Below are positions 53,875-63,684 of a DNA stretch of 63,684 nucleotides, piece after piece (position 1 is the stretch's first letter; every line of letters begins with the position of its first letter). The stretch is from Clostridia bacterium (GTDB lineage: Bacteria > Bacillota > Clostridia > Oscillospirales > Acutalibacteraceae), in the NCBI GenBank assembly GCA_017517135.1, contig JAFXAK010000018.1, forward strand, positions 1 through 63,684. Direction: 5' to 3'. A program made the position numbers and the translations under genes. The notes beneath the pieces are model-generated. The model did no database searches, was not told the origin of the DNA, and worked only from the letters and a program-made list of their open reading frames with translations.

Positions 53875-53961
53875 GCCGATGTGGCGGAATAGGCAGACGC
53901 AAGGGACTTAAAATCCCTCGCTGGCAACAGCGTACCGGTTCAAGTCCGGTCATCGGCACCA
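53875..53961 (+). tRNA. tRNA-Leu (anticodon TAA)
   Basis: An 87-nt class II tRNA. The acceptor stem GCCGATG pairs with CATCGGC, the anticodon stem GGGA/TCCC encloses CTTAAAA with anticodon TAA, there is a long variable arm (CGCTGGCAACAGCG), a T arm with GGTTCAAGTCC, and an encoded ACCA end. It has its own promoter and terminator. Confidence 0.97.
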
Positions 53962-53965
53962 AAAA

Positions 53966-53997
53966 AAGAGACTTGTGTATACAGGTCTCTTTTTTTG
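53966..53997 (+). terminator. tRNA-Leu terminator
   Basis: An 11-bp stem (53966-53976 with 53981-53991, one wobble), tetraloop GTAT, then T run. It begins five bases after the CCA end. Confidence 0.9.
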
Positions 53998-54002
53998 TGT
54001 TT

Positions 54003-54176
54003 ATGTCCGCAGGACATACATCGTTACGAGCAAAGCGAGTACTTCATTTGACAGCCTGCTGTCAACTTCATTGTCCGTAAAGCGGACATAAAACGAAGTT
54101 GCCTTACGGCAAACGAAGTGGCTTTGCCAATGAAGTGTGCCTAAGGCACAACGAAGTACCCTTCGGGTAACGGAAT
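54003..54176. repeat. array of 8-nt direct repeats alternating with different perfect palindromes
   Basis: A repeated unit AACGAAGT (54092, 54112, 54150; AATGAAGT at 54129; degenerate AACGGAAT at 54169), or its reverse complement ACTTCATT (about 54041 and 54065) in the first half, separates short hairpins of differing sequence. The hairpins are ATGTCC-GCA-GGACAT, TAC-GA-GC-AAA-GC-GA-GTA, TGACAGC-CT-GCTGTCA, TGTCCG-TAAAG-CGGACA, TTGCC-TTAC-GGCAA, TGGC-TTT-GCCA, GTGCC-TAA-GGCAC and ACCC-TTC-GGGT. Structure is conserved while sequence is not. It fills most of the 330-bp gap between the tRNA-Leu and the next gene. No promoter, protein or CRISPR-like unique spacer explains it. Confidence 0.85.
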
Positions 54177-54293
54177 TGTTTCCGCAAATCCGCCATTATC
54201 ACCAATACTCAACAACATCCCTTATCCCTATTGCAAAACCTCGGCTTTAATGTTACAATTTCCTTATAACACTTTGCAAAAGGAGAAAAAACG

Positions 54294-55157
54294 ATGAATA
54301 AACTGACAGATACCTTTAAGCTTTATAACGGTGTGCGTGTGCCTTGTGTGGGGTACGGGACTTATCTTACTCCCGACGGGGATATTGCTAAAAATTCGGT
54401 AAAAGAGGCTCTGAAGGTCGGCTACAGGCATATTGATACTGCTTTTATATACGGCAACGAAAAGGCTGTCGGTGAGGGGCTCAGGGAATCGGGTATCGAC
54501 AGAAAAGAAATATTTGTCACAACCAAGCACTGGGTTACTATGCGAGGCTTTGAAAAAGCAAGTGAAGCCATTGATATTTCACTTAAAAATTTAGGACTTG
54601 ACTATCTTGACCTTTATCTTATCCATTGGCCTTGTGTTGAAAAGGTTTCTCCCGATTGGAAGGAAATTAATGCCTCCACATGGAGAGCATTTGAAGATGC
54701 ATACAAAAGCGGAAAAATCCGTGCTATAGGTGTTTCTAATTTTCAGAAAAAGCACTATGATGCATTGGCTGAACGCTGTGAAATCAAGCCTATGGTTAAT
54801 CAGATTGAATTTCATCCCGGCTACATACAGAGCGAAACAGTAGCATATTCACAGAAACAGGGTATGCTTGTTCAGGCTTTCAGCCCTCTCGGCTGCGGTG
54901 CAGTTCTCTCAGATAAAACATTAGAAGCAATCGCAAAGAAATATAACAAGAGTGCTGCACAGCTTTGTCTGAGATTTGTGTTGCAGTCAGGTCTTAATGT
55001 GCTTACAAAATCGGTTACCCCCTCAAGAATAATTGAAAATGCCGATATTTTTGATTTTGAGATAAATGCCGAGGATATGGCTGTTATTTCAGCTTTACCT
55101 GAGCTGGGTTTTACAGGCTGGCTTCCCGAAAATGCGCCTGCTGATGCATTAGCTTAA
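54294..55157 (+). CDS. aldo/keto reductase
   Basis: 287 residues of the AKR superfamily (AKR5-like). The catalytic tetrad is visible: Asp in RHIDTAFIYGNE near 49, Tyr in the same segment, Lys in VTTKHW near 80 and His in YLIHWPC near 111. GVSNFQKKHY near 147 and VNQIEFHPGY follow. It reduces aldehydes and ketones, including sugars, with NADPH in the cytoplasm. AAAGGAG precedes the ATG. It heads a run of four same-strand genes (MFS, GH20, MBL) that probably form one operon for a sugar or glycan. Confidence 0.92.
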   Translation: MNKLTDTFKLYNGVRVPCVGYGTYLTPDGDIAKNSVKEALKVGYRHIDTAFIYGNEKAVGEGLRESGIDRKEIFVTTKHWVTMRGFEKASEAIDISLKNLGLDYLDLYLIHWPCVEKVSPDWKEINASTWRAFEDAYKSGKIRAIGVSNFQKKHYDALAERCEIKPMVNQIEFHPGYIQSETVAYSQKQGMLVQAFSPLGCGAVLSDKTLEAIAKKYNKSAAQLCLRFVLQSGLNVLTKSVTPSRIIENADIFDFEINAEDMAVISALPELGFTGWLPENAPADALA

Positions 55158-63384: not shown

Positions 63385-63684
63385 GTGAAAGAAAAAGACA
63401 TAAATAGTTTAGAACATACAAGTTGGAGATGTCAATACCATATTGTATTTGCCCCAAAATATAGACGACTTGCAATATACAAGGAAACAAAAGTAGATAT
63501 AGGAAAGATATTGAGACAGCTATGTCAACAAAAAGGAATAGAAAAAATAGAGGCAGAACTGTGTCCTGACCATGTGCATATGTTAATAAGTATCCCACCG
63601 AAGTATAGTGTATCACAGGTAATGGGATTCCTTAAAGGAAAGAGTAGCCTAATGATATTCGACCTGCATGCAAATCTCAAATAC
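63385..63684 (+). CDS. tnpA: IS200/IS605-family transposase TnpA (partial, runs off the window)
   Basis: The first 100 residues from a GTG start after AAGGAGG. It has SWRCQYHIVFAPKYRR near residue 13, the HUH metal motif in CPDHVHMLISIPPKYS near residue 61, and GFLKGKSSLMIF. The catalytic Tyr normally lies further downstream, outside the window. TnpA moves single-stranded copies by a peel-and-paste mechanism. The part seen is intact. Confidence 0.93.
   Translation, partial: MKEKDINSLEHTSWRCQYHIVFAPKYRRLAIYKETKVDIGKILRQLCQQKGIEKIEAELCPDHVHMLISIPPKYSVSQVMGFLKGKSSLMIFDLHANLKY

Follow-up and report, generated by a model that had tools for sequence, protein, structure and literature searches.

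The hairpin array behind the tRNA-Leu(TAA) gene of the window (the whole 63,684-nt stretch of Clostridia bacterium DNA analysed here) is probably a solo copy, without a gene, of a small mobile element akin to the S23/IVS kind. Copies of the array are dispersed, keep a fixed orientation, prefer sites behind terminators and tRNA genes, and have hairpin arms that covary. They are linked to a gene encoding a four-helix-bundle protein, and linker type goes with protein type. Behind one and the same tRNA in different genomes, arrays appear to be present, absent or swapped for another family, and homology between copies is limited to the unit, which lies between unlike flanks. Transposition next to a tRNA gene was among the guesses of the initial annotation and is supported here, but its "cruciform landing site" is reversed: the array appears to move, and the tRNA and terminator are where it lands.

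Inspection of sequence and folding gives eight hairpins alternating with short linkers at 54002-54169, as initially described, all parts lying on the + strand. The landing site, tRNA-Leu(TAA) (53875-53961; ARAGORN and Rfam RF00005), is followed by an intrinsic terminator (hairpin plus T-run, 53962-53999), to which the array (54000-54177) is directly joined on the 3' side. The left half consists of X with hairpin 1 (54000-54018; X 5' part 54000-54010, hairpin 54002-54018), linker CATCGT (54019-54024), hairpin 2 (54025-54041), linker CTTCAT (54042-54047), hairpin 3 (54048-54065), a second CTTCAT (54066-54071), and hairpin 4 with X' (54072-54092; hairpin 54072-54088, X' 54082-54092). To the right of X' follow ACGAAG (54093-54098), hairpin 5 (54099-54112), ACGAAG (54113-54118), hairpin 6 with the arms TGGC/GCCA (54119-54129, from folding and comparison of copies), ATGAAG (54130-54135), hairpin 7 (54136-54150), ACGAAG (54151-54156), the last hairpin 8 (54157-54169), and the right end ACGGAATT (54170-54177), an approximate boundary drawn by comparison of copies, many of which end in AAACGGAATT or AAACGGATT instead. 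Terminator, linkers and hairpin 2 were read from sequence, and hairpins 3, 5, 7 and 8 from folding. X and X' form an inverted 11-nt pair (TTTATGTCCGC at 54000-54010 and GCGGACATAAA, the reverse complement of the left end, at 54082-54092) that encloses the left half only and is missing from the initial description, and X' is retained in the copies L026 and L127 though hairpin 4 is gone there.

Other details of the first description also hold: the repeat changes orientation midway (after hairpin 4), the hairpins close with T-A or TT-AA steps, and hairpin 2 has tandem G-A oppositions. The repeat itself had been given as a fixed 8-mer or its reverse complement. The 8-mer AACGAAGT is exact at 54092, 54112 and 54150 (three of six occurrences in the whole window, where 2.1 are expected), but no exact reverse complement of it occurs in the array, and the remaining linkers are relatives of it (CATCGT, CTTCAT twice and ATGAAG). 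The linker is better described by a 6-nt core, CATCGT/CTTCAT in the left half and AYGAAG in the right half. Downstream lies a host gene (54294-55157, + strand, 287 aa; ORF list), which we take from its appearance to be an aldo/keto reductase. By the ORF list the window copy encodes no PF05635 (four-helix-bundle) protein, and the PF05635 genes of this genome sit elsewhere; as no such gene is present at the locus, the array is a solo copy. It lies behind tRNA-Leu and not inside a 23S rRNA gene (ARAGORN, Rfam), and at gathering score Rfam detects nothing but tRNA in the window, with no ribozyme family. The contig end of the window (63385-63684, + strand) carries a truncated Y1 transposase frame; two further pieces sit at the ends of contigs C24 and C27, a pattern suggesting that a single repeated element interrupted the assembly.

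The array has a hairpin-chain score of 61, whereas 10 shuffled versions of the window do not exceed 42, and its RNA fold has z-scores against shuffles of -4.9 (+ strand) and -5.3 (- strand). In a 464-kb sample (the window plus 20 stretches of 20 kb), eight chains score at least 48, of which six overlap tRNA/array regions; one chain reaches 46 after shuffling of the sample. The other two (L078 with 64, L075 with 54) lie in apparently coding sequence, and the chain score alone therefore cannot single out the window array, which is set apart by its repeated linkers. The sample has 315 ORFs of 200 aa or more, and an upstream chain of at least 45 is found for a single one, the ORF behind the window array. 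A detector combining repeats and fold was dropped because shuffles alone gave 219 two-unit, 16 three-unit and 4 four-unit clusters. CRISPR repeats are about 23-47 nt long with unique, non-palindromic spacers. The window array shares with them regular short repeats and variable spacers, but its repeats are 6-8 nt, its spacers are palindromic, and its orientation flips midway; the initial view that it is neither CRISPR nor coding is upheld, as the repeats and spacers show no trait of CRISPR and the array has no part in coding.

Relatives contain many copies, whose absence would have refuted the initial annotation. The pattern of the first hairpin (TTTRTGTCCGCAGGACAYAA) occurs in 109 stretches of the genome collection, and among the matches listed, 72 of 80 come from Clostridia, Oscillospiraceae or Ruminococcus MAGs. 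These stretches yield 113 instances, 99 of them with at least three linkers; the 113 include apparent chance matches to hairpin 1 without an array (L092, L096, L102, L106, L142 and L157 from Mesonia/Salegentibacter, and L160), of which L096 satisfies the three-linker rule through mismatches. Placement can be assessed for the 96 instances with enough upstream DNA. A hairpin plus T-run lies directly 5' of 87 of these, as against 70 of 2260 random positions, and a same-strand tRNA lies within 60 nt of 49 and within 500 nt of 54, with 18 tRNA types represented among the landing sites; opposite-strand tRNAs are absent from every upstream 500 nt scanned. Phage and plasmid records contain no match of the element and viral contigs none to the hairpin-1 pattern, and a search for other RNA families near six loci (Rfam) returned tRNAs and one T-box only. 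In several loci where no tRNA directly adjoins (L068 at ~15841, L085, L087, L091, L097 and L144), a sequence like TGTTGCCATTTTAAGCTGTAAACACAAAAA, which fits no Rfam family, precedes the terminator. Solo arrays at different loci (L090, L133, L159 and L177; also L112, L144 and L188) have a common block to the right of the array, with a promoter-like site (TGTGATATAAT) before different host genes, possibly a mobile promoter.

A BLAST search of the array against 27 genomes of the genus gives seven copies in its own genome (an eighth place is a terminator matching itself only) and matches in four other genomes. The seven share one orientation and all lie behind terminators, the sites being tRNA-Leu (the window copy), tRNA-Met, tRNA-Pro, tRNA-Arg, tmRNA, and the tandem modules L022 and L026. 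The latter two have no full tRNA directly before them; instead the tRNA-end-like CTCGCACCA precedes their second terminator. Hairpin 6 shows paired changes among these copies (TGGC/GCCA in the window, TGAC/GTCA in L022 and L025, TTGC/GCAA in L026). Between copies in general, some hairpins are exchanged completely (hairpins 2-3 in L026 and L127), and those kept at their position show compensatory changes. At the tRNA-Met locus (L019), the 3' end of tRNA-Met and the first part of its terminator occur a second time ~100 nt to the right of the array, which looks like the outcome of an insertion or exchange at the tRNA end.

Because column alignment misplaces hairpins 2-3 in several rows, covariation was assessed on the spacers left when arrays are cut at linkers: 417 in all, 262 of them distinct, obtained from 103 of 119 elements. 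The outer pairs are Watson-Crick in 1195 of 1339 cases (by position), compared with means of 36-54% when 3' arms are shuffled within position, at the five positions with at least 40 spacers. Because the arms covary so far above the arm shuffles, the hairpin sequence changes while the structure is kept, and the spacers are not conserved as ordinary sequence lacking compensation, the other outcome that would have refuted the initial annotation. The claim that folding and not sequence is preserved is supported, but the hairpins are not freely variable, each position tending to keep its own. An alternative origin for such stems is replication template switching, which would make neutral palindromes and keep them perfect, the linkers being mere separators. 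The near-perfect Watson-Crick pairing of the stems fits this, as does the mismatch pattern: in the left half G-T exceeds A-C (28 vs 7) and G-A exceeds C-T (41 vs 8), in the right half the counts are 16 vs 18 and 6 vs 12, and a symmetric detector gives G-T vs A-C counts of 10 vs 5 for this family, 5 vs 0 for others and 320 vs 225 for background, so that the strand asymmetry is suggestive but not robust. Template switching may explain how stems stay perfect; as a full account it is very improbable, leaving unexplained the conserved linkers, the X/X' plan across unlike families, the tRNA targeting and the gene linkage.

Transcript ends of 24 tRNA/tmRNA genes in the own genome were read by eye, with one tRNA (C14) outside the count. 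A hairpin array lies behind 11 of them: five belong to the CTTCRT family and two each to families with the linkers TATGTAATC, TATATCATC and TATGAAAT. By eye, the other linker families follow the same plan: linkers to the left, the left end repeated in inverted form at the centre, and the linkers in reverse complement to the right. Apart from these 11, the tRNA-Gln(TTG) end carries a four-helix-bundle gene together with ATTCATTA-type repeats accompanied by few hairpins, and the tRNA-Val end carries an apparent relic. In L032, behind tRNA-Val(TAC), ATCCATTGC and then directly TACGCATTGATTTT follow the terminator, which looks like a deletion between the first and last hairpin. At tRNA-Leu(TAA) in 10 genomes of the same genus, compared at the tRNA only (the fetched regions L338 and L339 lack this tRNA and are excluded), four have other families (arrays in L328 and L330, a decayed one in L332, repeats with few hairpins in L333) and six have none.

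The fixed place and orientation behind tRNA terminators, and stems whose structure is kept by covariation with almost only Watson-Crick pairs, could also be read as a selected host structure, for instance a gyrase, insulator, terminator-backup or 3'-end-protection array serving highly transcribed tRNA genes and spread by duplication. We consider this improbable, as arrays are absent from 13 of the 24 own ends and from those six relatives at tRNA-Leu(TAA), families appear to be swapped at the same tRNA, a protein gene is linked to the arrays, and transfer between species is limited to the unit.

Comparison of paired loci shows near-identical units in unlike flanks among relatives of the window copy. 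L138 and L143 have tRNA-Tyr and its upstream DNA in common (85% identical) and differ in their terminators; from X to the stop codon of the gene there are 3 mismatches in 564 nt, and beyond the stop the sequences are unrelated. L239 and L240 lie behind different tRNAs (tRNA-Gln and tRNA-Ser) with unrelated upstream DNA, and identity starts at the tRNA end GCCA, covering the terminator (40/40), array (169/185), pre-gene stretch (61/79) and gene (359/360) and running 45 nt past the stop, which includes the start of a neighbouring ORF in L370. As the pre-gene middle is so much less conserved than the gene, this pair is a mosaic, which argues for exchange of parts and not only of complete units. 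Homology in two further pairs (89% and 79% identical) runs out ~116 nt beyond the stop codon in L372 and 2-3 nt short of it in L373/L374, so that right boundaries vary from before the stop codon to at it (L138/L143) and beyond. The solo pair L166/L185 is 98% identical over 225 nt including the terminator, with unrelated flanks. The unit yielded no gene for a recombinase or transposase, and no target-site duplication or empty site was established; with the own genome set aside, an empty-site search with the downstream flank returned nothing but 64-72% matches in or close to the reductase gene.

The left boundary of L239/L240 at GCCA, together with the CTCGCACCA copies in L022 and L026 and the second tRNA-Met 3' end in L019, recalls elements that integrate at tRNA genes. 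The arrays would then be remnants or satellites situated in the attachment region of another element, whose tyrosine integrase uses the tRNA 3' end. This is unlikely: with 18 tRNA types and tmRNA in use, many integrases would be needed, no integrase was recognised in the list of ORFs around the window array, and phage, plasmid and viral sequences gave no match.

The unit extends beyond the array that was initially described: the preceding terminator and the inverted X/X' ends belong to it, and full copies also have a promoter and a four-helix-bundle gene. Such a gene lies within 1 kb of 24 of the 113 instances (the match in L126 being weak and partial), leaving 89 without it, including the window copy. 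In several gene-bearing copies it starts ~210 nt after X, preceded by a promoter-like TTGCAC...TATAAT, the first part of which is inside the last hairpin. The protein (~118 aa) belongs to PF05635/TIGR02436, the S23 or "23S rRNA IVP" family (named 23S_rRNA_IVP and four helix bundle protein in Pfam and NCBIfam), and a sequence search gave 2rld as the only solved relative. The own genome has three PF05635 genes, two with a hairpin array, located 218 nt behind tRNA-Gln(TTG), 214 nt behind tRNA-Arg(ACG) (counted from an early start codon) and 267 nt behind tRNA-Gln(CTG); the linker of the window copy is found at none of the three.

REP/BIME elements are dispersed palindromes with short conserved feet in both directions, which a partner protein, RAYT, moves or is proposed to move. 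The window array resembles them in its short palindromes, its conserved foot in both orientations and the dispersal of its copies between genes. Of 60 relatives, 30 have Y1_Tnp matches, some of which are weak and lie in longer, possibly RAYT-like frames. A REP/BIME-like family moved by a RAYT-like Y1 tyrosine transposase, with the four-helix-bundle gene as a passenger, is nevertheless improbable. Alongside its seven array copies the own genome has just four Y1 matches, of which at least three break off at contig ends and which look like one broken IS200-type element; the gene linked to the arrays is PF05635 and not Y1. The arrays further differ from REP/BIME in hairpin sequences that vary between families and in their site behind tRNA terminators; the linkers read in the window array are of other sequence than the GTAG/GGAG-type foot.

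Beyond the own genome, 44 of 60 relatives have PF05635 matches. For 108 of their genes with at least 250 nt upstream, compared with 315 control ORFs, a same-strand tRNA/tmRNA lies within 450 nt of 35 (controls 3), a hairpin chain of at least 35 precedes 46 (controls 3) and one of at least 45 precedes 33 (control 1), and a 7-mer is repeated at least four times in the upstream 200 nt of 56 (controls 4). Linker and protein types agree among the 87 genes with a repeated 6-mer: linkers are shared in 52 of 1570 pairs at 40-50% protein identity, 48 of 972 at 50-60%, 76 of 200 at 60-75% and 41 of 63 at 75-95%, a total of 217 of 2805 pairs that is reached in none of 1000 permutations. This agreement could reflect co-inheritance by linkage alone, without binding. 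Upstream of many four-helix-bundle genes (L340, L346, L199, L209 and others) there are ~7-nt tandem repeats without hairpins, perhaps a simpler form of the linker.

In a sample of the phylum, PF05635 matches occur in 29 of 149 genomes, and of 25 genes examined there, one is preceded by a hairpin chain and none by a tRNA in the nearest 450 nt. Since most of these genes lack it, the tRNA-plus-hairpin form is a variant in one part of the PF05635 family. Elsewhere the gene lies within 23S rRNA genes (L349 and L360 by Rfam; L353, L356 and L364 by eye) or inside an RNase P RNA gene (L355 and L357, at 1229-2003, - strand), where the Rfam match extends over 775 nt for a model of 367 positions. Short tandem repeats lie before several of these genes, GGTTAGA being an example from those inside 23S rRNA genes. 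The S23 protein has been described as a homopentamer without known function and the IVS termed selfish or possibly mobile (PMC4990558); PF05635 has been likened to Avd of diversity-generating retroelements (PMC10053308), though a search of the own genome gave no match to a reverse transcriptase and no variable target gene was noticed. In a CRISPR survey (PMC10910872), 23S rRNA IVP appears in a figure legend and other non-CRISPR repeat arrays are described. Among the titles and abstract starts listed from the open PMC set, none describes such arrays or their link to PF05635.

Full array units share the PF05635 protein family with the 23S rRNA IVS that carries an S23 gene (Leptospira, Brucella, Coxiella), and both are small and tied to structured RNA genes. 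They differ in that array units lie behind, not inside, the RNA genes, have linkers and variable hairpins, and have gene-less solo copies. The full unit consists of a terminator followed by X with hairpin 1 and a series of linkers and hairpins up to X', a second series in which the linkers are in reverse complement, and finally a promoter and the four-helix-bundle gene; such units lie one way round directly behind tRNA/tmRNA genes, at the CCA end or the terminator. The four-helix-bundle protein may recognise the linkers on a folded strand (RNA or single-stranded DNA), with the hairpins as spacers presenting the linkers in register, and it may act in cis on its own unit and in trans on solo copies such as that of the window. 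Strand joining would be left to a host or other enzyme, or to an activity not yet known in the PF05635 family. Several findings weigh against a mobile element of the S23 type: the unit has no recombinase or transposase and its right boundaries vary; 73 of the 108 relatives' genes, and all 25 of the phylum sample, lack a tRNA within 450 nt; most instances (89 of 113) are gene-less, and no own gene carries the window linker; L239/L240 is a mosaic; and linkage alone can explain the agreement of linker and protein. More tentatively, the arrays could represent a new class of mobile element with a four-helix-bundle (S23/Avd-like) protein as its sole protein, which would read a clade-specific linker on a folded hairpin array and direct insertion at structured RNA genes (behind tRNA/tmRNA genes, and inside 23S rRNA and RNase P RNA genes in other Bacillota), with no known recombinase.

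Two other kinds of small or site-specific element invite comparison. MITEs are short gene-less copies found beside gene-bearing ones, with terminal inverted repeats and target duplication. The arrays likewise occur as solo and gene-bearing copies and have inverted X/X' ends (around the left half only), but they have no known transposase partner and no established target duplication, and their orientation is fixed relative to the tRNA. Group IIC introns insert in one orientation directly after intrinsic terminators, as the array units do; the array differs in being far shorter, with no ribozyme match in the window and no RVT_1 match in the own genome.

For the S23/IVP proteins, known from rRNA intervening sequences, there is now a visible candidate substrate: the linked array, in which a clade-specific linker recurs between variable but covarying hairpins and whose landing site is a tRNA gene or terminator. 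What these proteins do thereby becomes directly testable. The arrays also form a natural series of folded structures for studying the upkeep of palindromes, and they put a name to one feature that recurs behind tRNA genes in gut Clostridia.
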